From Scatophagus argus (Eukaryota > Chordata > Actinopteri > Scatophagidae): DNA of 64,000 nucleotides. The first letter of the stretch is position 1. Every line of letters starts with the position of its first letter. The stretch spans positions 9,469,223-9,533,222 of the forward strand of contig NC_058515.1 in the NCBI RefSeq assembly GCF_020382885.2, given 5' to 3'. Below the pieces are notes generated by a model. The model did no database searches and had not been told where the DNA came from. It saw nothing but the letters and a program-made list of their open reading frames with translations. The position numbers were made by a program, and so were the translations under genes. Below, in pieces: positions 22,397-55,800 of the stretch.

Positions 22397-25300
22397 TTAG
22401 TTGTTGCTTTCCTCCCCCAAGTAGTCCATCTCTGTGCTGGACTTGCCCAGGTCCATGTTCATGTCCATGTCCATATCCATATCCATCATTCCTCCTGCCG
22501 AGTGTTGGTGGAAGTTTGCTGCAATCTGGTCGAAGGTCTTGCCCCGCGTCTCTGGAACCCGGAAGAATGTGAAGATGAGGAAGAAAAGGAGGAGCACCGC
22601 GAAGATCAGGAAGACGTATGGCCCACAGAGGTTCTGAGGAAGGATGGGATCAGAATAAACAGCATGACAACACTGCAGAAAATGCCACAGTTAGTAGGAT
22701 ACCCATTATCGCCAAGTTCATCCACAACTATCTACTGAAGGTAAACACTCACAGCAACATATTGGAAGCACATGCCGATGATGAAGTTGGCAGTCCAGTT
22801 GGAAAAGCCGGCCACAGCCATGGCAGCCGGCCTTGGACCCTGAGAGAACAGCTCAGCTACAAAGAACCAGGGGATGGGTCCTGGGCCGACCTCAAAGAAG
22901 GCCACAAAGCCAAAGATTGACAGCATACTGATGTAGCTCATCCATGGAACGCTGTCCTGTTAGGAGGGAGGAGGGGGGAAAAGGCTTCAGAAGTTAGTAG
23001 AGAAAATATCCACAACAGCACAAGATGCTTGCATCTCTGCGAGACTGACCAACAAAGCGAGAGCCATCGTCATGACGACTGCACAGATGCACATCCCACC
23101 AAGTCCTAGCATGTGGAGCGTCCGTCGGCCCATCCTCTCGATCAGGAAGAGCTGTTAATAATCCGAAAATATGGAAACGGAGAGCTTGTCATCCTTAGTA
23201 GGCGATTGGAGATATAACTTATAACTTATAACTGAAGCTGATAAAGTGAACTATTCGTCTAGTGTGATTCATCGTCAAAACAAGGGTGCAGCCATGCCCA
23301 GCAGCTCTATCAGGTTGAGGGAACACTAGAGGGAAAGTTGGCATCACCAAAGTCAGTGGGATTTATCCCTCTGGGAGCCACAAACAAACAAAACTTCACA
23401 GCAGTCCATCCAAAAGTTATTGAAATGTTCTAGTCTGGACCAAAGTGATGAAGCCACGTTCATTTCCATCCCACAAGCCATGTTAAATTTCAAGTTTTTT
23501 GACCCGTGTAATGACATTGAAACATCTTAATCTGCCAAACCACACTTGACCTATTTGGAATGGATGTGAGTGTTTGAGAGGCGGGCACAGGCAGGCACAG
23601 GCAGAGAAATCGCACAACCAACCTGCCGCGTTATCTTATTTGTTCTTTGATAACAATGTTAAACAGTAATAGAAACACACTTTGGTACATGGCTGGACTG
23701 TACTCTTTATCATACTAAATTCAAAAACATTTAGAGTTCAGTTGTTTTATAAAGATGGAGGGACACACCAAAAATCTAACATGAAGGCACGCTGGTTTGG
23801 TTACTGACCGAGACCACAGTGAAGGCGCAGTTCACCACACCTGCTCCTATGGTGGCATAGACTGGACTCTGGACTCCCGCCTTCATGAAGATACTGGTGG
23901 AGTAGTAGAAAATCTGTCCAGATAGATAAGAAGATTAAGATTATCAATATTCTAAAGCATTGATTGACTTTATACAAAGTGTATTGATGTAATTTAATTT
24001 TTTTTTTTTTTTTTAAAGGAACACAATCGCTCACTGCGTTGATCCCAGACAGCTGCTGGGAGAGCTGCAGCAGGATGGAAATGATGATGGGCTGGCGGTA
24101 CACCGGAGAACGAAAGAGCTCCAGGATGGACACCTTCCTCTCCATATCCATCTTCCTCTTCTCCTCCTTCATCTCTGCAAGCATGTCGCCCACCTCCTGC
24201 CTGCCCGTCAACCTCCTGAGGCCTGCACAAAGTAAGAAGCAACAGAGGCTCTATGGGGTCAACTTAAGATGTTATATACACCATATAGATGGTGGCTCTA
24301 ATACATTCAGTCCCAGAAATTTTGCATAAGGTGACTTGGAAGTACTTCGATACAAATAGCAAGGTGCTATTCAGTAAGTGGTTAGACGGTGTAGTAAACC
24401 TCACAGCCTTGTCTCGCAAAAATTGAAATGATTGTGGTCATAGTTCACCAGCAACAAAAATACAAGAAATGTTAATAAAATGTCTAATAGTTGTAGTCAG
24501 ACAGTCAACAAACAGATACAGAAACTAACGAGTCAGGAGGGAAAATATTTTTTTACTTTGGACCTGCATAATGCCACGTAAGCTGACATTATATTACAAC
24601 AGCCGAAGTGGAGCAGCTAACTTTATTCATGTTGGACCAGTTTAGCTGTTAATACTCGGGCTTTAGATTTAACCTCACAAAAATAAATAACAAAATAAAG
24701 GTAAGGGTTATTCTAAGATAAAACCAAGACACTGAAGACCAATCTTGAGTGCGTCAGCCCTGCTCACCTCTCTTGGCCTGGTGCTCCTGGCAGCGGACAA
24801 TGTAGAGGAAGCGGGGGCTCTCGGGACAGAAAGGCAGCAATGCCATCTGAAGTACAGTTGGCACGACAGTTAAACCCAGCAGGACTGGCCACAAGTCCTC
24901 ACCGCCCAGTAACACCTCCAGACCCAAGATCTGCACAGTGAGAGGGGTCAGATGTGGAGTTACAACATTAAAAAAAAAAGATAATATGAAAACATTTCAA
25001 GGAAAGGCTATCAGGAAATATCAGCATTAAACATTAAACATTACATTTGTTGGTTTAATATTAGAGTTTTGATCACCTTAAGATTTGTTCTGGAAAAATG
25101 AGCTACGTGATGGGGGGGAGATCCAAACTTTTTTTGAGAAATTACTTCATGGTTTTCACATTTAACTTTTGATCTTTGTTCATACAGAAAGGCTTTATAA
25201 TGTGTGTCATACCTGTGCTATGAGAATACCAGTGACTATGGCCAGTTGGTGCAGCGTGCCCAGAGCCCCTCGTAGACTTGTGGGAGCTATCTCCCCCACA

Positions 25301-34640: not shown

Positions 34641-35734
34641 GATGTTGCATTAACCGCGTCATGACAGCAGAACGCTCTGTGATTGGACGGCTGTGCGAAC
34701 TTAAAAGCTGCCCCTCCCCCTTCCTTTCATTGGGAATCCCCAACAACAACAACGTGCTCAGCTTTATCTCAAAATATTTTGACTTTTTCGGTTCTTTTCG
34801 CTCCCCTCCTGAACAACATTCAACAGTGACTCATCGCTGTAAGACAGCAGTAGCGGGACGTTCAAGGTAGCGTTGTGGTCATACACCTCTAATTCGTTAA
34901 AGTAAAAGAGCCAAGAGCTACTTTCTTGTCCGATAAAGAAAGTTTTGCGGCAGTTAAGCTAGTCGGTCTGATTGCAGACGTAGCGCCAACGTAAGCTAGT
35001 TATGCTAATGCTAAGCTCGATAGCCAATGCAAAAATGGTTTTGCGCTATAGCAAGCTGTACTGTTCCTAGACAGTCGATAGTCATTAGCTTCCAATAGTA
35101 ATTTTGGTGCAGATTAAGTTTGTATTTATCGAAGCATTCTGAAAGTGGCAACTCGGCGGCTAGCTAGCTTCATTCAGTCCGTAGAGGCCCCCTCCTCGAA
35201 AGAAAATGGACGATAGCTAACGTTAGCAGGTGTCAAAGTTTTACGTTTGTTTGCGGACGAGTGATTGTGAACACACGTAATTTTTATTTCCACATTAACC
35301 TTTGTTTTCGAGGAACATGGCTCTTTCGATGGCTATATGTGCGAAAGCGTTAGAGAGTCACGTCAACGTGAGACAGAGCTCACAGAGTAAGAGGCCTACT
35401 TGTTTCCAGCTTAATTTAGTGAATCCGCATTTCCTTAAGATAATTTATCCATTAAAAACCCTAATGTTTTGAAGCCATTAAATCGCGCAGTTGGATAACA
35501 AACCAAAATCCTCATGATGTTTATTTTTCACAATTTACTGTTATTTTATTGACAAAAAAATAATAAATTAACACTGACCAATAACTCGACAACAGAAATA
35601 GTTTTTGCCTTGAATGTTAGTTGTACGATACAATTAACTTTCATTTTGTCACTTGCATCTAATCAAATGTTTATTTTGATAGAAATCGACTAATTTAATC
35701 ATACTAATTTTTAACTTCCTGTTGATCTCCACAG
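34641..35734 (+). other. tp53: tp53 promoter and noncoding first exon region
   Basis: DNA ahead of the tp53 coding exon is GC-richer than its surroundings and holds inverted CCAAT boxes (GTGATTGGAC near 34679 and TCATTGGG near 34729). A probable 5' UTR exon lies somewhere between about 34850 and 35390, with a candidate donor around 35388 (GAGTAAGAG). The acceptor of the coding exon (CTCCACAG) ends at 35734. Exact transcription start and exon borders are not determinable from sequence alone. Confidence 0.45.
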
Positions 35735-35794
35735 CACCTCCTGTGTCTTGGCTCTTCCTCATTCTCTCTCTCGGCTGGGTAAAGAGGGAATCTA

Positions 35795-38700
35795 ATGATG
35801 GAAGAGCAGGGATTTGATAGTCTGCCGCTGAGCCAGGACTCATTCAGACAGCTGTGGGAGAGTGTGTAAGTTTTGTTTAAGATACCTTTTTTTTTTTAAT
35901 AAAAAAAAGTCAGGTCATGATAGAAGAACAAATGAACCAGTCTGTATATTTCTTTTTTGCAGAGCTGCCCCCTCAATCTCCACCATTCCAATGGTGACTG
36001 ATGTGGAAAATGGGCACATGGATATGTTGGTAAGCATGTGTGTTCATGCCCTTGTTCAAAAACATTATGTTGAATTTCTGCAAAAGAAAGCTTTCTGTAA
36101 CATATTAGATTCTCTTGTTTGTGTTGTTTTACAGCTTATGAATGATCAAGAGTTGGCTGATGGGTTTGATGAAAATCTGTTTGAGCTGGCGCCAGAGGTG
36201 TCTGTTAAAGATGGGGTTACTCCCCCATCCTCCACCGTCCCGGTTACAATTGACTATCCAGGGGAATATGGCTTCCAGGTTCGCTTTCAGAAGTCTGGCA
36301 CAGCCAAGTCCGTCACTTCCACTGTAAGTAATTTCAAACCCAAGTTCTCACAAGAAACACAGAAGTTCTACATCCTTGTTAATTTCATGTGTTTTTTTTA
36401 AACTGGTTGGTAAATGTTTTGCTCTATCATTTTCAACAGTATGTGCACCAGTTAACACGTCTTATAGCTGTTAAGATAAATAAAAGTCAAATATGTACTT
36501 ACTGCCCATTAATTGATTTTTAACAGAATTACGCAGAATTTAAGTTCTAGACTTCAAATATTAGCTAAATTACTTGTGTTTCAAAGTTCAGCTGGACTTG
36601 CCGCAGATTATCCTGCAACCAAACATGACGAGGAGTAGAACAAAAGGGAGTTCCACAGCAGCTCAATACTGACGTCCGATTACTGTTGGGCTGAATTTCT
36701 TCTATCCAGTGTGCAGTTTTATTAACAGAAACTCTGTGCCTGTTGCATGCTGTGTTAACTCACTACATTAAATTCAACTTAACTAAATGGACTTCTAAAT
36801 GTTAAGGTTTTGAAATTGAAAGGTTTTACTGTAATTATTTCACTGACACAAAATTATTTAAAATCGAAAACGAATAGTGAAAACATTTAAAAGGAACTTC
36901 AAAATGACTTACCTCGTCACGTTAAAAATCCTTTCTTTCGCATCTCATGGTGGTATTCATGTGGAATCTTTTTCATTGTGGCAATTCGCTAAATTTTAAG
37001 GTCTAGAATCAGTCGCTGCGTTTGAAGAGCCAATGGCATTAATATTTCCACGGTGACTCACCCAGCAGTGCCCTGCAGTTGGCCAGTTTAGTTGAGGTTA
37101 GGGTGGTCTGCCCTGAAACTCCCGCCCCCTGCGACTTGTGCTCTGCCCTGTTGGAGAGGCGCACTGTGGTTGTAAAGCCCAGCTCTGACATGACGGGACA
37201 TGTTCCTGCGCTGTCTTCCTCCAGCACAGAAAGGGTTAAATATGGACCAACGCAAGGTAAAAATTAAGTGTCTTTTAAGCTGATAAATCTGGGCTGACTT
37301 ATTGGTGAACTCAACAAGTAGTTTGGTTTTGGTACTTTAGAGAAAAAAATAGTAATTGAACTTTTGTTCAAGAGTAGTGTTTGAGTTTTAGTATTTATGA
37401 TAGCGCATTCTTTTTCTGAGTCAGCTCTCAGGGCCGTGCTTTAGGATTTCAGTAGTGCTTTTAGGTTCAGAGCCGCTTTTCACAGCTCTGCTGCTCCACA
37501 GGTGTTAACGTGTATGGCTTTCTCCCTGTGCTTTCTCTCAGTATTCGGAGCTTCTCAACAAGCTGTATTGCCAGCTGGCAAAGACCAGCCCGGTTGAAGT
37601 ACTGGTGAGCAAAGAGCCTCCGATGGGTGCGATCCTCAGGGCCACAGCGGTTTATAAGAAGACTGAGCACGTGGCCGAAGTGGTTCGCAGATGTCCTCAT
37701 CATCAGATTGAAGACCGTAAGAAAAAATTGGAGAGAAACATTTACAGTGGAAGAGTGTTAGAAGAATTTCATTGCATTTGTGTAATTGATCTGAAGTTAT
37801 TTATTTGTTTTTTTTCTGTTCTCTTTTAGCTGCAGAGCATCGAAGCCATCTCATCAGAGTGGAGGGCAGCCAGAGGGCACAGTATTACGAGGATCAGCAC
37901 ACCAAGAGGCAAAGTGTGACCGTCCCTTACGAGCCCCCTCAGGTACAACACCGAAAAGAGCTCATAAAGAATTCTAAACAATTTTGGTGATGTACTTTAA
38001 CCAATAAAATAAAAATTGTTTCACTTTTTGTCTTTCAGCTGGGCTCAGAGATAACTACAATTTTGCTGAGCTTTATGTGTAATAGCTCCTGCATGGGAGG
38101 CATGAACAGAAGGCCCATCCTCACCATCCTGACCCTTGAGACGCCAGAGTAAGTCTTAACAGATGTTGCAGTGTGGTGTTGCTGTATCGTCTTGTGTATG
38201 GAGAAGAGATTGAGATATAGAGGGCAGGGGTCTTTTTACTGTCTTTTTAAACATTTTATTTACATTCATTTGTATGTCAATGATAAGCATGCCCCAGTTA
38301 AGTCATGTTTTAGTATGTGCAGCCTGTGAAGGCATTTTAACTGCTCCTCTTCCTCTTCCCAGGGGATTTGTTTTAGGCCGCAGATGCTTCGAGGTGCGTG
38401 TCTGCGCATGTCCAGGCAGGGACCGCAAAACTGAGGAGGAAAATAGCACCAAGATGCAGAACGGCACCAAAGAAACTAAAAAACGAAGTCAGCTTTGTTT
38501 TTTGTTCTTTTGTTGCATGACATTACGTATCGGTTTCAGTCCCTGCTTGCCACTTTCCTTGCTGACCTCACCTTTGCTTCTTTAGAGAGCACCCCGGCTC
38601 CTGATGCAGCTTCTGTGAAGAAGTCCAAGCCGGCCTCCAGCGCAGACGAGGAGGACAAGGATGTGTTTGTTCTGCATGTAAGTACTCATTTTCATAGAAC

Positions 38701-39326
38701 TGGAAGTGTTTACGTAAAAAATTTTTCATGCTCTTTGATTAATTTTCCTTTTGGTCTCCCCTGAAGGTTCGTGGTCGCGAGCGTTATGAGATGTTGAAGA
38801 AAATCAATGATGGCCTGGAGTTGCTGGACAAAGAAAAGTAAGGAGTGTACTGGGTAAATTTGTGTCAAAACAGTTTGAATGACGTTCAGTGGTCCAAACT
38901 TCTAACTTTGTTTTTCACATCTTTAGAGAGCAGAGATCACCTTCCATTAAGGGTCACTGCGTATAATGTTTTTCATAGAACATTTCTATTACAAATTGCT
39001 GTCTCACAGCATGAATTTTATTCACTGTTTATGGTGTAATGTAGATAGACTATGCAAATATAAGTAAACTAATTACTGCCATCAAGGAAGCAGATGAAAG
39101 CGGTGTGAGTCAACCCTTAGTGTCCCCACTACAGTTACTGTCATTCTGTGTGAAACACCAAACAGGCTCAAACACAACCCTAACCTCTTTTACCACCTAC
39201 GAAGAGTCATGTCCTGCTTCTCTCTCCAGCAAAACCAAGACCAAGGTGTCTGTGAAACCCGAGTTCGCTGTGCCTTCCAGTGGAAAGAGACTCCTGCAGA
39301 GAGGAGAGAGGAGTGACAGCGACTAA
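35795..39326 (+). CDS. tp53: Tumour suppressor p53
   Basis: Stress-activated tetrameric transcription factor. Ten coding exons: 35795-35865, 35963-36029, 36135-36323, 37542-37716, 37830-37942, 38039-38148, 38363-38487, 38586-38677, 38767-38837 and 39230-39326, total 369 aa. The start is fixed by an in-frame stop (TAA 35780-35782) just upstream; a second Met follows at once. The transactivation domain has the MDM2 box as FRQLWESV (F17, W21, with Val24 where human has Leu26). The DNA-binding core keeps the zinc ligands C160, H163, C219, C223 and the DNA contacts R229, R230, R254, R261 (motifs [15 protein letters not shown] and [15 protein letters not shown]). A basic nuclear signal (KKRKS) precedes the tetramer domain at 310-338 ([17 protein letters not shown]). 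The basic C-terminus ends RGERSDSD. Intron 3 (1.2 kb) is the longest of the coding introns and contains a p53-type element. Confidence 0.98.
37186..37205 (+). promoter_or_regulatory. tp53: p53-type response element in tp53 intron 3 (candidate internal promoter)
   Basis: The 20 bases are two abutting decamers, TGACATGACG and GGACATGTTC. The second matches the RRRCWWGYYY half-site perfectly; the first keeps the central CATG with three flank mismatches; spacer is zero. It sits in a GC-richer patch (about 37050-37260) of an AT-rich intron, just before the exon encoding the start of the DNA-binding core. In zebrafish, p53 drives a shortened isoform (delta113p53) from a promoter in the corresponding intron. 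A donor-like AAGGTAAAAA follows at about 37254-37263. Function here is inferred. Confidence 0.6.
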
Positions 39327-41050
39327 GGAAGCTCATTGCTCTGATCAAGAGAACAAGCAGCATGTCTTTCTCCCTCCAAGCCATCGGGTTTATTTCAGGT
39401 TTTTATTTGTCATTGGAACCCCAAACCACCTCCTCCTGCCTCAAGTACATGAGAAAAATTTAATCCAGTAACTGTACTGCCTGACCATTCACTGTACTCA
39501 AAGTACTGTACCATGATTTGCTTTTTTTTTTTAAACTTGTGCCACTGAATAAAGGCTGAACGGATTTTGTAGAGGAGAGCAGTTCATACTGTAAGCAGGT
39601 CTGCCTCCTCTGTACTCTGAAAAGGTCCCCTGAAATGGTTTTGAGGACTTAAACAGTCTGTGCATTTGCTTGAAACAGGAAAATGGTTTGGGGCTTAAAA
39701 CTTGTAGGGGACTGTATTTAAACAGTGTTAATGTTGACAGGGATTTTCATTTGAGTTTAAACAATTTTGGTTTTTTGTTGTTTTTTTTTTTTTAAATTCA
39801 CGTCAGTCATGTTCTCACCTGTAATGCATTATTTGTAGTACAATTTAGAGACCTGAAGGTTTTTCTTTGTTCTTTTTTTTTTTTTTTTTTAATCAGTGAC
39901 ATTCGTTTTCTATGTTCTGTCAATATAGTAATTATGATCTTAAATGTGTTAAAAATAGAATCAGGCTGGTCAAATTTTTAGTCCTAATTAAGACCAGGAT
40001 CATAATCTTCATACGAGTCACTGCCAAGTCAAGCTTGAATGGGGAAAACTTGAATGGGAGTATACTTCTGCTAATGTTGCTGTATTACTGTACCACATCC
40101 CACGCAAATGAAAACATTTACATCTAGTCAAACACAAACTTTAAGCTGTTTGTCAGGACGTTCCCTTGAAACAAGTGTTTTATTCCATTATGCTATGCAC
40201 GCAGATCTAAAATCGTGAAAACCAGGAAGGCCGGATCAAAGAACGCACGGGCCAAAATGCATGCAAGTTCCTCAGTGGGTTTTTTTCCTGCTTAAATTTT
40301 TTTTAAAATATATATATATATATAATCCAAATATATATATTTTTTTCGTCACAAAGAGCTGTAAACAGATTGTAGTCTCTTTTCTTTTTGTCTCTTCTTA
40401 GAGATTTGTATTTTGTCATTGAATTCACCTCTTCAGTGCTGATGATTCAAACATTTAATGTCATGATTTTTTTTTTTTTGTTAAAAACAACAGGGGCTGG
40501 CTGGATCACCCCAAAAGCTAATCACCTTTTGTTATTTGTAACTTTACAGCAGAAAGTATTGGTAGGGGGGAGGGAAAACCAAATTGGGAAGAGAGCATTT
40601 TCAACCTGTAAATACTGGACCAAATTTTTAGGACCTTAGACCACAGTTTTATTACAACAGTTTTATGGGCCGCAAGCGACTGCATTTCTAAATCAATGAA
40701 GAAGTCACTCGTTAGGATGCCCCTGCTGCAGTTTGGTTTTATGTTTCCGTTTTTGGCCTCCAACCTACAGACTATGAAATTTGTCACTTAATCAGCACTT
40801 CATTTTTAAGCAACCGATCACTGTCTGTTCACTACAACCACTTCTTGTTTTTACACTGCTGAGAAAGTTGACGTAAAGGCATTTCTTTGTTTATTTCTAT
40901 ATCTTTTATATATTATTTTGGGAACATAGTTTTGTATAAAAGGTTTATCTTTCTATATTTTTCATTGTTATTTTCCATCGCTTTTTTTGTACTAATTTGC
41001 ATTTTTCTTACTGAAAGCTTAAGCCAAAATAAAAGCTTAACATAAAACTC
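39327..41050 (+). other. tp53: tp53 3' UTR
   Basis: Long AT-rich trailer with many T runs (for example 39780-39794 and 39874-39890) and an (AT)n stretch at about 40306-40343 able to fold on itself. AATAAA hexamers occur at 39548-39553 and 41028-41033; the latter is followed by GT-rich DNA and fits the distal end. The frames at 39912-40127 and 40388-40639 lie inside it and look like chance. Confidence 0.6.
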
Positions 41051-41444: not shown

Positions 41445-44400
41445 ATGGGAAAGTTACTTTTCAAGGGTAAAGCCTTTGTTTCAGTGTACTGGGGTGAGTA
41501 TCATTTTCTCAGAGCTGTCCAGCTGTGGCCTGTAGGCCTATGCAGTATTTTTAGAGACAAAGTGAAAGTTTAAGCCATGTCAGTTTAATTTTTTTTTTTG
41601 GATTGTTTGAAATCGTGATGGATTTTCATTAGTTTTTGCAGTGAGAGGGCCATTATGCAATTTTTTAACAGTATGCAAATTCTTGTGTTTCATAAAGTCA
41701 GAAGAGCAAATAATTACTTACTAATTTTACGTCCTTCATGGCAGCATCCTTTTCAGTTTAGAGGTTTGAAGGGTTTCCCCATTACAGCAAATTACTGAAT
41801 GTTTGTAAAAACAATTTTTAATCCGACTTAACATTTAAAATTATTCAGAGAATAGAAAAGAGGCCCGCAAGAACAGAAACATATGAAATCAATATTTTGT
41901 TCTGGAGTTTACTTACAACTATATGCAAAATGTGACTAAAACCTGTTGTAGTTCAGTTGAAGATACTGAGAATACAGACGTTCACTAAATTGTGCAGACA
42001 TTGATTCAGATGTTGATGAATTGGAGAAGAGTATTGAATCTTTAGTTAATTGGCTGTTTAGTTTATAATGAGCAAAAACACCAAAGATTCTCCCATCCTG
42101 ACTCATGAATGTAAGGCTTTGTTGTTATTATTTTTTTTTTTTATTTCATGTCATATTAGATTCAAATTCTGGTCACTTGGTTGGACAAAGCGAAAGATGT
42201 TACCTTGATCTCTGACAGATTATAATTCATTCTTTTTTAAAACCAAACATGAAGATAATAGTCTGCAGATTGTTGAAAGTAATCATTAGCTGCAGCACTA
42301 GTTTAATGATGCAATGATCGAACTTCTCTCCTGATGTCAATACCTGAACTCAGGGAATGTGCCGATGAAATGTGCGTCCGTCTCCTGTGGTCAGTTTTGG
42401 CCAGTCTTACCTGTCCGTATGTTTCTCCTCAGCTCTGATGGCGATGTCCATTACTGCAGAGCAAGAGTATTTCCCTCGCTCGAGAAATGTCACCTGGGAC
42501 GAGGCCAGGGAACACTGCCAGGTACAACATGAGCTTCAGTTCTCTGATCAGACCGAGGTTGAGACCCGGACTGTGTGCACATACTGAGGAAGCTGTGATG
42601 TTGGAGACACACGCGTTTGTAGCAGCATTTAATGATGTGGTCTTTGATTAAAACTAGCATTGTGTTAAAAAGAACATTTACTTCCGTGTTCTTGAGTTTC
42701 ATTTAATTATCATGAACTGTTCATTTATTAACAGTTTCACTAAAATAAAATTGTTGATAGTCATTTTTGTCAACGATGAACCACTGCTGTTAAATATTGA
42801 CTGTGGCCTTTCGTGTCCTGTCAGGCCTGTTACGAAGACCTGGTGACACTGACTCCTGGAAACATCCAAACCATCACTCAGAAACTCACTTCTGACTACT
42901 GGGTGGGCCTGCGCAAGAACTTCTACTCCACCGGCGACCCCAGTATGTCCTGGACCTACTGGGCTAACGGGGATCCCCTCACCTTCCAGAACTGGTACCC
43001 TGGTTGGCCCATGTTAAATCCCTCCCTCCCAAATCGAGACTACAGCTGCCGCTGCTCCTGCACCTCCACCTCCCCGACAGCCCGCAGCTCCAACACTTTC
43101 ACAGAGTTCACAACCCCAAACGTGAGTGAAAATGCGTTCCAGAACTGGACGCACATGAGCAGCTTCTCCAACGTCACAGACCAAGCCATGACAGGCGCTA
43201 CCGGAATCGGGGAATCCAGCACCCCATCGACCACAGCTGCACTCTTTACAGACAGGCTGTGTGAAGCATCATGTGTGCCAGATGTCCCAGACACCATTGA
43301 GAACTATATTGAAGACTCTTGTGTGGTCATGCTCAGCTTTGGGGCTTGGATAGAAAAGAACTGCTTGGAGCTTCTACCGTTTATATGTTATGAAGGTGAG
43401 ACTCATTTAAAGCCTCTTCGCTGCACCTTGTGCGACTGTCTAAGCACCTCAGCAGAACATTAGCTTTTCAATTAAATCTACAATTTCTCTTAATTTCCTC
43501 CAGTTTAATGCATGATGTCATCAACATATTTTTACGCATGGCACAATATGGGGCATTATTCTTTAAGACATTGACATTCTTCTTTTTATGTCCAGAACGT
43601 TTCTTTGGTCAAGTCAACGTGACCAACGTGACTTCAAGCAGTGCCAACGTCACATGGCTAGAGGGGCCTGGCAACATCAGCCATTACCGTCTGGAGGTCA
43701 AAAGTTACCAAGAACCGATCATAAATCTGACCGATTTGACCTACAGCCTTGTCAACCTGACGGCAGGCACCCACTACTCGATCCAGGTGTTCCCTGTTAA
43801 GTGTGAGAGAGACCTCAACCCGCAGGAGGTCGCCTTCTATACCAGTGAGTTTGTCTCAAACTACTCATTTCTTTCTTACAAATCTTACAGATTTGATATC
43901 TGTAAGATTAAGGACTTCACAATTTCCTTTGGGCATTAAAACTGCCAATTTTTTTCTTAAAGAACCGAGCAGATGGAGGTTAAATCCTTGTGTGTGATTG
44001 GCTCGTACTAGTAAGAGTAAGAAGTTTGATGAGCGTGCCTTAACTCTTTCTTAAAGTTTTTTTTTTTTTTTTGATTTGTTTGAGCTCACTGCATTAATCA
44101 GGACTTGGTATATTTTGTGGTGTTTAGTGGTCAAAATCATTGCTGTTTTCAAGCAGATTATCCTTAAATTAGATCAACACTGATGAATTAAAATTTCAAA
44201 AAGAAGAAAGTAATGACCCGTAGTGGTGATGCAAACTGTCTCTTCTTCTTTCAGTACCTAACAAAGTTGAAAACCTCACAGTCACAGAGTGTACCGACGT
44301 TTCCATCTCCCTGGCCTGGAACAGATCAGCTGGAAATGTGGATTTCTATCTTATTAAGGTCCAGGGTGAAGAGAAGATTCGTAACACGGAGGACATAAAG

Positions 44401-47400
44401 GTCGGCAATTTGACATCTGGAAGCCGTTACAAATTCACCGTCCTCTCAGGAGTCGGGAACAATTCGATATATAGCGAAGAGTCGAGCATCGAAGGTCACA
44501 CCAGTGAGTTTTTTAATCACTTAATCATGTTCAGGTTTTTCTCTTCTGCCTTTTATTTGGTGAAGGATTTTAACAGGAAGCACGCTGTGCGGTTGAGAGC
44601 AGTGACAGCACAACAAAAGCCTGTTCGGGTGTAAATGAGGATGATGTTCATAGCTGGTTATTTCCTGGCCACATGTTGAGGAATTCAGATCAGCGGAGGC
44701 GCATTAGAGCCACGTCTGGTTGTTGTGAGTGAACTGAGTGATTTTATGTCTGTTTTCAGAGCCTGGGAAAGCATCCAACCTGACAGTCTCTAACAATACC
44801 AATGACTCGCTGCTGCTTACCTGGCAGCCACCACCTGGACTGACCACAGGTTACGTGGTGACGGCTGTGAATGACAGTGATCAGTATGTATTTGTACATG
44901 CTTATGTAAATGTAATTGTATTGACAGTGATGTGTGTTTGGAGCTGTTCTGTCAGCCTGGTTCAAGGGTTGCTAACGTAGACTTTTACTTTAGCGCCACT
45001 GAGTGAAATACCATAACATAATATGGAGTGACTTCTCATTGAGCTCCATCATCAGCCTGTAGTAAAAGTAATGACAATAACTGTGAACGGTAATTGTGAA
45101 TTTGATGTACCCTTCTCTTTTCTGCCTACGGGTCTGAGCCCTGTTTTAGCAGTTTAGGCCATCATTTCTATTCATTATGATCCCATTACACTTTAAGTTA
45201 AATTGAACCAAGTAGTTGTTACATAAAGTGTGATGGATATTTTTATCTTTTTCTTTTCCTGTCTAACATGGGGCTTTAAAACCTGTATGATCAGCTGAAT
45301 ACTCGTGTTTCTTACTCCCTCTGACTTTTGAACTGAGTTTTCACAAAGCTGCAGCACAGGAATTGGAAGGCTTTCCCAAACTATGAACACGAGACTAAAA
45401 TTTGTTAAAAGCTGGTACTTAACTTTTGCAGGCAGCAGCATTGCAAACCAAGTACTTGTGTCTCTTCCTAACAGGACGTTGTTTACTGAAACGTTGAACC
45501 ACACTGAAGTGAAAGTGACCGGGCTGCCGATGGGCACCCGGATAACCCTCAGTGTGGCAGCACTGGCCAATGACACTCTGAAGGGAGACAAAGTGACTGT
45601 CGTCAGCTTCACCGGTAACTCTGCACTAATGGTTGACCCCTCATTGTTGGTTCGGTTGAGAAATCCATGATGCCTGCTGTGTTGAATGTCATTAACCTGA
45701 CTCTGTGGCTCCCCCACAGCTCCTGGTCCAGTTTCAAACCTGACTTTGGTCACAACACACGACTCCCTCAATGCCACCTGGACCTCTCCTGTGCATAATT
45801 ATTCACGGTTCAACGTCACGCTCGAGCTGGATGGCACAAATGTCACAACAGACAGCATACAAGAACCCAGGAAGCACTTTGACCACCTGAAGGCTGGTGC
45901 CAACTACACAGTGATCGTCTACAGCGTTAACGGGCGTTTCGAAGGCCCACCAGTAAAAAGCTCCAAATTCACCCGTGAGTCTCTTTGGCTCATTTTCCTG
46001 ATTTGTGGTTGAATTTTGATTTTATTTGAAGCAGCAGTGAGATCACAGGAAATCCCTTCCTTTTCCCTGATTGAAAATACCAGTTGTTCATTATGCAATC
46101 CGTGCAAATCACTGCCTCATTTTCTCTCTCTTCCTTTTTTTTTTCTTTTCTCCCAGGGCCTTTGCCGCCTACTGACCTCTCCATCCCTTTTTTCGACAAA
46201 CAGCAAATCACGTTACAGTGGAAGGCCCCTGCCAACACAGCAGCAGTCACATACTCTGTCAAGATCAGCTCCAGCTTCTGGGGCCACAGCTGGTCTTTGA
46301 CTGTGAATGATAAAACCAACCACACGTTTAGTGACTTGAAATCAGGGACCAAGTACGACTTTGAAATACAAACGGTGGCGGGTGGCAACTCGAGCATTGC
46401 AGTACTCACGTCTCATTTTACAGGTGAGACTGTCACACTTGAAAGACCATATTTGGATTGCTTTAGCCCATTAGAAACAAACGGTATAATTTCCTTTACC
46501 ATTACATTTCCCCAAGCATAGCATACTTTCAGTTTAAATTGGCCAAAAAAAAAACTTTTAACATTCATGAGAAAAAACCTTTTGGTTGCGTTCCACGAAA
46601 GGCCAGCATGTGAGGTTTGAGAGGCAGCTGTTCAAAAGCATTGCATTTACTTTGAGGCTGACTCTGATATTCAGCTCACACACCTCACAAGTGCTTCTGA
46701 GATTTAAACTCAAAGCTGTTTTTGACACTAGCTTGGCGTTTGAATTTCTGCTAAACTTATAAATCAAATCTGCTTTCATTAAACCTGATTATCAAGGAAA
46801 ATTGTAAGAAGCATTACGCCCTCTGACCGCAAAAAAGGCCTCCAAACAAGTGAGCAACAGCTTTTCTGGTTATCAGTTGCATCTGGTGGACGTTTTGTCC
46901 TGCGAAACTTAACAGGTTTTTCCAAGCACCTGGACTTTCTGTATATTTTATCCTATATGTGTCACTTCTAATTTAATTTCACCCCAGTCCGATCTAGGTC
47001 TGACAAAGGTCTGACTAGCCACTGTGGACGTAGACATAAATAATCACTTTGCATCTTACGTGGACCTGAAAGAAACTTTGTCCCTTTTTCAAGCCACCAA
47101 CGTTGTCTGAGGGGGTGTGGTGGGAGGTGATGGAGAGCTGACTGAGTTCAAATTCAGGCTGTCGTAGATAACAGTATTCCAAAGAAAAGATTAAGGAACT
47201 GTGTCTATATAAAATACCAAATCCATTGAAGGAAGTTCACCAGAAGTCCTTTTACAGCGTTTTTATGACTGGTAACTTCAGAGACAAAGCAAACAGCAGA
47301 CATTATTTATTCATTCCTCCACATGCAAATTTTACATCATGAATGAGTTTGTGCTTCCTTGTTCTAATTTCCTCTTCACACAGTCTGTGTTTGTTCCTCA

Positions 47401-52858: not shown

Positions 52859-55800
52859 TCAGTTTGCTGGGACTTCTTTGTGCGGTGGGGTGATTCTCAT
52901 GAGTGTGCGACCATCCAGCGGGGCAAACAGAGGGTACAGCTTCCCCTTGAAGCTTCCCGTGAAGGTGTAGATGTGGGACTTTGTTTGTGCATCGTAGAAG
53001 GAGATCTGGCCCTCTTCATAGTCTAAGTAGATCCCGATACATCGAGGCACGAGGCCAACGGGCAGGGGTGTCTCCGGCTTGGTGCAGGCGTAGAATCGGT
53101 TTGTGCTGCGCCACAGGACCCAGTAGCCCTGCTTTGGGGTCATGGGGAACCGGCCACTACGCTGAGAGTCGCTGGTGGTCACTCCCACGCGCCAGCAGCC
53201 GTTTTTGGCTATGTCCACCTCCCAGTAGTGGCGGCCCTTGCTGTAGCCCTCCCAGCCGAGCACACAGGGCCAGGTGTCGAATCGCTGAGAGCTGCAAGGC
53301 AGGTCGGACACTGAGTGGCTCTCCTGGACCATACGCTGGTCGTCAGATAGCTTCAGCCAGGGGTAGTTGGTCACCGGGTCGAGGATCACATCGGCTGATA
53401 GGAAAAAGAGAGCGTGCGGGCGCAAATTAGTCTGTTGGACTGTGAATGTGATGTTTCTCTACACTATGTGGACAAAAGTATTGGGACAACCATTACTCGT
53501 TTTTTATTCGTGCAGTAGACTCTGCTCTGCCGGGTAGAGCAATAGAGAGGCCAGTCACTGATGTTGGACCAGAAGGCCTGGCTCACAATCTCTGTTCCAG
53601 TTCACCCCCAAGGTGTTGGATGTCAGGACTCTGTGTGGGCCAGTTAAGTTCTTTCGTTCTTTCGTCCACACCAAACTCATCCAACCATGTCTTAATGGAC
53701 TGTGCTTTGTGTACTGGGGCACAGTCATGCTGGAAAACATCCCCGTCCCAATACTTTTGTCTATATAGTGTATGTGAGATTAGGATGAAGTGGAAGTTGA
53801 TCTCACCTTTTGCACTGAGAATCCAACTCCAAACTGAAAGAGACAGACACACAGACATTACAGTGGCAGTCAGTAAAGAATTGAAATGTTTATTGTATGT
53901 GGTCTAAACCCGTGATTTTCAGAGTTCCAAATTAATTAATGTTTTTTCTTTTTAAAAATAAAAATTGCCTACCTGAGTTGGGGATGTATCTGGGAAGTCC
54001 TGCTTTCCAAGTTTTTTGCTTTGCCAGCAGCCATAACTGTGGAATCTGAAAAGAAAAAAACGTGTTTGAACGGGAAAGCATTTTTTTATGTAGTGATTCC
54101 TTAATTATACCATCCTTTATGACCATGCAGTGTGTAAATATGAGCAGCACATATTGTAAATGCTGTGTAAACCTTCCAGGAAACATTTTTTTACGAGATT
54201 TACGGTAAAACATGACTTAGTGCTGCTTTTGGAAATTGGTTAAGGGTCATAAACATAAACAGAACAATAAAAAAACACAAGTTTATATTTACTGACTAAA
54301 AGTCACATACGCCTCTGCTCCAGCTCAACTGAAGTCAAAGCAGGCACTATAGTCCCATCAAATTCTGGTCAGGAACTTTGCTCCCGACAGCACACCATCA
54401 TCAATGCATGTGATGATCGTTTATCTGCAGTCTTCGCTATCAGTTATTAAAGACGGTGACTGACGCAGTTTACCTGGGCAGGGGCAGACTCGATTAATTT
54501 ATTGCTTTTGATATAATGCACATAGATGAAGAGCAGGGGTCACTTGTATCGAATGTTGCGTCGTTATGTAACCCAGTCGCGGCTGCACTGTGATGTCCAT
54601 CAACTGCTTTCTTTTAGATGTTGAACTTAAGCCAGTTCTGTGGTTTTACGGTTTTCGTTGATGTTATTTGTAAAGCGTACTAGTTAAAATGTTTATCTTT
54701 GACCTTCGAGGGACCTTTTAAAAAAAATGTTTGTCAGCGGCTTCTCACCGTGCTGTCTTCTTTGAGCAGAGACCACGTGATGAACTCCAGCAGAGGCATC
54801 AGGTTGAACAGCCGTTTCTTCTTCAGGCCCAGCAGACGCAGCACTTTTCCCAGCTCTTCGCTCTGCACGCCGCAACTCTGCGAACACAAATGCTTATTTC
54901 AGCTGCTGCATTTGCCGCAGTCTTCCCTAAATTATTTTTCATCATAAGCTGTGATGAATTCTGCTGACAGTGACAAACACTAACTCGCTTTCCACAAGTT
55001 TGTTTTTGGACTGTCAGGTTTCAGCTTTGCAGCTCCTCACCTCAGTCACCTTCTGAAGCTCCTTTGCCCACTCCATGATCTTCAGTTCTGCCTCCCCACT
55101 GGTTTCATGTTTAAGGCTCTCAGATGCCCAAGGAGTCTCCTTCAGGAGCTGAGGACACAAATTCAGTACGTTCAGATTGATATTTACGCTACTGAGTATA
55201 TCAGAATTAGAGTTTATATTGTCAAATGTACATGTACACACAAGTACACATGGTTGACCTATAACTGACAGTATAATCTTTACCCGATCGATGTGGTGGA
55301 GTTCGTCAGCCCACTCCAGGATCAGTTTCCTGCTCTCCTCAAGACTGCGCTCAGTACGTGTGCTTGAACTCTGTGCTTCTTTGTTGCTAGTGCCTTCCTC
55401 TGGATCAACACCGCCCTGCGAACACACAGCACCACGCACTGTCAGGCCATGTCCTTAAAGACATAATGCAGCACGACTATGACAATCAGATGGCAAAAAG
55501 ACAAACGAGTTTCTGACGGTTTTTTTTGTTTAAACTGGCAGATGTTTCGGAGGTTATCATTTGCTAATTTACAGATCACATCAGGGTTAAATAGATGAAG
55601 AGTTATATCTGGTGAGTTTTTCATTTGCTTTATCCCATATGCCCTGGCCCAGTGCCTCATTTACTCATTTAATGGGGTTATAAAACGGACAACACTTTCA
55701 GTATGCACTCAGCCAGTTCCCATGTTTATTGCTCTTCGTGACCGAGCAAAGTAATCATCTCCCTCAGCAACGCTTATCCAAGGTTCAGTAGAACTCGCTG

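Follow-up and report, generated by a model that had tools for sequence, protein, structure and literature searches.

A candidate p53-responsive internal promoter and associated short coding first exon in intron 4 of Scatophagus argus tp53

Where could an N-terminally truncated p53 begin in a species that lacks the internal methionine from which the best-known short isoforms start? A review confines delta133p53 isoforms to human and higher primates on the ground that this methionine is absent elsewhere, and it also describes zebrafish delta113p53 (PMC7698932). The tp53 gene of the fish Scatophagus argus raises the question anew: the methionine is missing, and the intron in question contains a p53-like element and a potential start codon of its own. 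We analyzed this gene within a single stretch of genomic DNA of 64 kb, referred to as the window.

The tp53 gene model and its longest coding intron

The gene and the two parts of it that concern us here are as follows.

35795..39327, + strand: tp53 coding region, ten coding exons encoding a 369-aa full-length p53 (clean spliced open reading frame)
36324..37541, + strand: longest tp53 coding intron, 1,218 bp, equivalent of intron 4 and host of the candidate internal promoter
37542..37716, + strand: core-domain exon 5, the predicted splice partner, whose first codon is whole (Tyr110)

The 369-aa protein matches the Pfam families P53_TAD (residues 9 to 26), P53 (residues 86 to 269), and P53_tetramer (residues 296 to 339) at E <= 0.001 and no others. 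The transactivation motif, the DNA-binding domain, and the tetramer domain are all present and a SAM domain is absent, which identifies the gene as tp53 rather than tp63 or tp73. In the working gene model, the donor after exon 8 (ACGAA/GTCAGC, 38487-38493), judged by eye, fits the donor consensus poorly, yet the frame is kept.

The earlier note on this DNA had placed its candidate in the longest tp53 coding intron, and the gene model agrees. This intron lies between coding exons 3 and 4, and the numbering "intron 4" assumes a non-coding exon 1; it is bordered by the exon 4 donor ACT/GTAAGT and the exon 5 acceptor CTCTCAG/TATTCG. Exon 5 opens at Tyr110, and this stretch aligned with TYSPALNKM in the p53 chain 5xzc_B, which we take to be the human protein. 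The candidate patch therefore sits in the intron preceding the exon that begins at human Tyr126, the position of P2, although here the promoter itself is a candidate. Human Met133 corresponds to a Leu here and zebrafish Met113 to a Val (the zebrafish register rests in part on PMC4333405), and the first in-frame methionine of exon 5 is M137, in PPMGAI; the earlier note had read these residues correctly. Zebrafish delta113p53 and human delta133p53 start at an internal methionine of exon 5, and because the equivalent residues here are Val and Leu, any comparable start in this fish must lie elsewhere.

A candidate start codon in phase with exon 5

Six features of the host intron bear on where that start might be.

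37050..37256, + strand: GC-rich patch that is a candidate for both the internal promoter and the first exon
37186..37205, + strand: p53-like element TGACATGACG/GGACATGTTC, half-sites directly adjacent, with an intact CATG core in each
37200..37202, + strand: upstream in-frame ATG, which would add 14 residues ahead of MDQRK if transcription begins 5' of it
37205..37224, + strand: acceptor-like tract of pyrimidines, closed by a CAG at 37224, which would define a 32-nt cassette exon at 37225-37256
37242..37256, + strand: predicted alternative coding start, ATG GAC CAA CGC AAG (MDQRK), with A at -3 and G at +4
37257..37262, + strand: donor GTAAAA following AAG

The patch had been described as richer in G+C than its surroundings, and indeed G+C content is 55.9% at 37050-37262 compared with 35.5% in the remaining intron; a content as high is reached by 2.7% of the 213-bp windows taken across the 64 kb at a step of 20. 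The patch is not a CpG island (CpG observed/expected, 0.42). It contains the words TGACTCA (37054), CCGCCC (37122), and TGTGGT (37165), presumably AP-1, SP1, and RUNX words. A second TGASTCA word of intron 4 lies at 37417, 3' of the candidate exon. A repeat origin of the patch was considered and rejected: the intron contains no direct repeats of at least 14 nt, and its one weak inverted pair (72%) falls outside the patch. A search of 35000-39500 against Rfam returned nothing at the gathering score.

The patch also contains GTTAAATATGG, which had previously been called TATA-like. This word includes an ATG at 37242 in the context AAATATGG, a strong Kozak match, and because the identical letters form an in-frame start codon in such a context, we set the TATA reading aside. 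The donor-like site that had been noted soon after it is present as GTAAAA at 37257. The mini-open reading frame from 37242 meets this donor (AAG/GTAAAA) on a codon boundary and is in phase 0 with exon 5 at 37542, with no intervening stop; the predicted junction, 37256/37542, joins ...CAACGCAAG to TATTCGGAG. The predicted product, MDQRK followed by Tyr110 onward, would be 265 aa long (5 + 260) and would lack the transactivation domain. It would exceed a form initiated at Met137 by 32 residues. The earlier expectation that an isoform of this species would start deeper in the core domain, at Met137, fails because the candidate exon has its own ATG in phase with the next exon.

Which ATG comes first would depend on the RNA start site, and two cases count against the prediction. 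An out-of-frame ATG at 37190 precedes the others if RNA starts upstream of 37190, while a start downstream of the p53-like element would leave a leader of no more than 36 nt.

On weights that are general splice-site frequencies and not a trained model, used for donors and acceptors alike, the donor at 37257 scores 3.04, above the donors of exons 2, 4, 5, 6, and 7 and below that of exon 3 (3.73); these six (exons 2 to 7) are the ones scored among the nine tp53 donors. This donor lacks G at +5, and 87 of the 3,925 GTs on the + strand of the window score as high.

The 20-bp element reported in the earlier note is present at 37186-37205 as two abutting half-sites, the first a weak one with a CATG core and three mismatches in 10 positions and the second perfect (3 + 0). 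It is ordinary by mismatch count, because the window contains 22 spacer-less sites with at most three mismatches, compared with 22.0 expected under a first-order model and 23.2 in 10 shuffles. Requiring a CWWG core in both half-sites leaves 2 sites in the window, where 2.0 (first-order model) or 2.8 (shuffles) are expected, and 0.038 such sites are expected in the host intron. Perfect half-sites number 13 in the window versus 25 expected. Sites in which both cores are CATG are expected less often: the same two qualify (36032 and 37186), both within tp53, compared with 0.13 expected per 64 kb and 0.0025 per host intron, a rarity that is suggestive only because the CATG condition was chosen post hoc, once the site was known. 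As a candidate p53 response element, 37186-37205 is ordinary by mismatches and CWWG cores and rare by its CATG cores. The other doubly CATG-cored 20-mer, at 36032-36051 (AAGCATGTGTGTTCATGCCC, three mismatches), lies just inside tp53 intron 3 and adjoins the exon 3 donor.

A strong-Kozak, in-phase ATG followed by a donor of that strength occurs once in the intron, at 37242, and dinucleotide shuffling of the intron, repeated 300 times, yields one in 8% of cases (26% if the Kozak condition is dropped). Taken alone, the pairing of in-phase ATG and donor is therefore not significant (P about 0.08). For 37050-37300 alone, the strong-Kozak pairing arises in 1.6% of 1,000 shuffles. Across both strands of the 64 kb, we found nine arrangements of a strong-Kozak ATG, an open reading frame of at most 90 nt, and a donor scoring at least 2.5 (three on the + strand and six on the - strand). 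When a p53-like element with at most three mismatches was required within 100 nt upstream of an ATG-donor arrangement, in any Kozak context, the ATG at 37242 was the only one on either strand. None of the parts is unusual by itself, but their joint occurrence in the expected intron is; what this one sequence offers is a prediction.

Preferred and competing readings

We read the patch as an internal, p53-responsive promoter (P2) of tp53 together with a short first exon that is itself coding, a reading that we hold to be slightly better than even. The earlier proposal of a p53-driven internal promoter was reasonable in itself, and its position matches that of the zebrafish promoter, but it overlooked the in-frame ATGs (37242 and 37200) and the whole-codon donor. 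In the sequence of events that we envisage, full-length p53 would bind the element at 37186-37205 after damage, and RNA would begin at or close to that element. Translation would then start at the ATG at 37242 or, given a leader long enough to include it, at the one at 37200, as their contexts suggest. The splice signals and the frame predict that the exon, which ends at 37256, is joined in phase 0 to exon 5 at 37542. The short product may enter tetramers with full-length p53 and so restrain or redirect it, an effect reported for zebrafish delta113p53 and TA5p53, and the exon-borne ATG would stand in for the internal Met113/Met133 that this fish lacks. A broader proposal, that fishes without Met113/Met133 keep a p53-driven short isoform by placing its start codon in a special first exon within intron 4, is more tentative, and we consider it possible rather than probable.

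The same letters could be explained without any promoter, as a GC-richer intron stretch in which a p53-like word, an ATG, and a donor fell together by accident. The elements are individually common, as the numbers above attest (22 sites against 22 expected, 2 doubly CWWG-cored sites against 2.0 to 2.8, 13 half-sites against 25, and P about 0.08 for the ATG and donor), and the same 2.7% of 213-bp windows in the 64 kb are equally GC rich. An accident, however, would have to account for a combination that recurs nowhere else on either strand of the 64 kb and that falls in the one intron that carries a p53-driven promoter in zebrafish and human. We regard chance as unlikely, while giving it appreciable weight. 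A more modest departure from the preferred reading grants the p53-driven promoter and supposes that its 5' end is non-coding, with translation from Met137, or that the donor at 37257 is unused. Zebrafish offers a precedent, in that the delta113p53 transcript opens with exon 1a and uses a start codon in exon 5 (PMC4333405), and M137 is the first in-frame methionine of exon 5 here. Nevertheless, a scanning ribosome would reach the better-placed ATG at 37242 first, in frame when the RNA is spliced at 37256, and the context of Met137 (CCTCCGATGG, with C at -3) is poorer than AAATATGG. Because of the C at -3 and the preceding ATG, we rank a Met137 start low and think this variant improbable.

The remaining possibility is that the full-length transcript can take up 37225-37256 as a cassette (poison) exon of 32 nt, the inclusion of which would add HRKG and a stop after exon 4 (...VTSTHRKG*) and thereby lower p53. 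The acceptor-like CTGTCTTCCTCCAG scores 3.98, near the exon 4 acceptor (4.15), above those of exons 9 (3.82) and 10 (1.77), and below the other seven of the nine tp53 acceptors, exon 4 included; CTGAC at 37185-37189 is a possible branch point. Yet 131 of the 4,280 AGs in the window score as high. Acceptor-donor pairs this strong arise in 23% of 300 Markov-resampled introns, compared with 3.4% of 500 resamplings of 37050-37300, and the cassette is weakly supported for that reason. It would also make it a coincidence that the patch has a p53 element and a strong-Kozak ATG in phase. We judge a cassette exon to be a poor bet.

Relation to known p53-family isoforms

The internal-promoter reading with a coding first exon has parallels within the p53 family. 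DeltaNp63 and DeltaNp73 each begin with an internal first exon, which provides the start codon along with a few residues unique to the isoform, and the internal first exon of DeltaNp73 is p53 responsive; the predicted exon here would do likewise in supplying a start codon and a few unique residues. The DeltaNp63/DeltaNp73 first exon, however, joins from intron 3 of p63 or p73 to exon 4, one exon earlier, and keeps the whole DNA-binding domain. The join predicted here, at Tyr110, falls within the Pfam P53 domain (86-269), and the product would lose the first part of the DNA-binding domain. Zebrafish DeltaNp53, as described in PMC2958959, is a splice variant comprising exons 1 and 2 and a retained intron 2 with the start codon M2. 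There too a tp53 intron provides a start codon in frame with the next exon, but DeltaNp53 starts before exon 3, keeps the whole DNA-binding domain, and does not involve an internal promoter (PMC2958959). Zebrafish delta113p53 and human delta133p53 share with the candidate an intron 4 location, a p53-like element, and an N-terminally truncated product, which here is predicted. An 11-bp deletion in a p53 element of zebrafish intron 4 abolishes delta113p53 and spares full-length p53 (PMC7378207, PMC7862496), and in human P2, too, an intron 4 p53 element lies upstream of the start site (PMC13072146).

The closest known system is zebrafish TA5p53 (exon 1b, tp53 intron 4). As set out in PMC4333405, zebrafish intron 4 contains a damage-induced promoter and an alternative, longer first exon spliced to exon 5; only the allele with a 4-bp CATT deletion gives this longer exon in-frame ATGs, yielding TA2/3/4/5p53 with 9 to 65 added aa, and in TA5p53 9 aa are joined to a p53 without its residues 1 to 93. 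The likeness extends to an internal promoter in the same intron (a candidate here), extra residues that an intron 4 exon contributes ahead of exon 5 (predicted here), an ATG of its own, and a lack of the transactivation domain (predicted here) (PMC4333405). In S. argus, the predicted intron 4 exon has an in-frame ATG (37242), and its donor (37257) is in phase 0 to 37542. The zebrafish ATGs, by contrast, need the deletion allele and coexist with delta113p53 (PMC4333405), whereas the ATG here is present in the given sequence, 5 aa would be added (19 from the ATG at 37200), and a Met113 form is impossible. What is new here, with moderate likelihood, is an intron 4 first exon with a sequence-encoded in-frame ATG, a predicted variant on the TA5p53-like layout.

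The literature search covered open papers, with subscription papers and transcript databases outside it; among the matches listed, the fish papers on p53 isoforms concern zebrafish only, an intron 4 isoform in other fish is not reported, and the peptide MDQRK appears in no paper. Given that scope, an annotated transcript may well exist. In the prokaryotic and viral contig collections scanned, no p53 locus was found, a result that therefore has no bearing on fish. Two Acetobacter matches were rejected as p53: they rest mainly on the stretch LETPEGFVLGRR, and their surroundings are not p53.

If the broader proposal is true, the absence of an internal methionine would be no evidence against such isoforms, contrary to the inference drawn in PMC7698932; an intron 4 exon with its own start codon would mean that the Met133-based inference fails for N-terminally truncated p53 generally. 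A damage-induced loop of p53 self-restraint could then extend beyond what searches for Met133 suggest. In zebrafish, irradiated embryos with the CATT-deletion allele survived better (46% versus 29%; PMC4333405), and this phenotype provides a clear physiological test of the prediction.

Within the window, tp53 is flanked by a sugar transporter fragment (23801-24211, - strand) and an open reading frame with a PRY-SPRY domain (52859-53425, - strand). Downstream of tp53, at 42813-46518 on the + strand, lie open reading frames that show a fibronectin type III domain and a weak match to C-type lectin and that perhaps belong to a single receptor gene.
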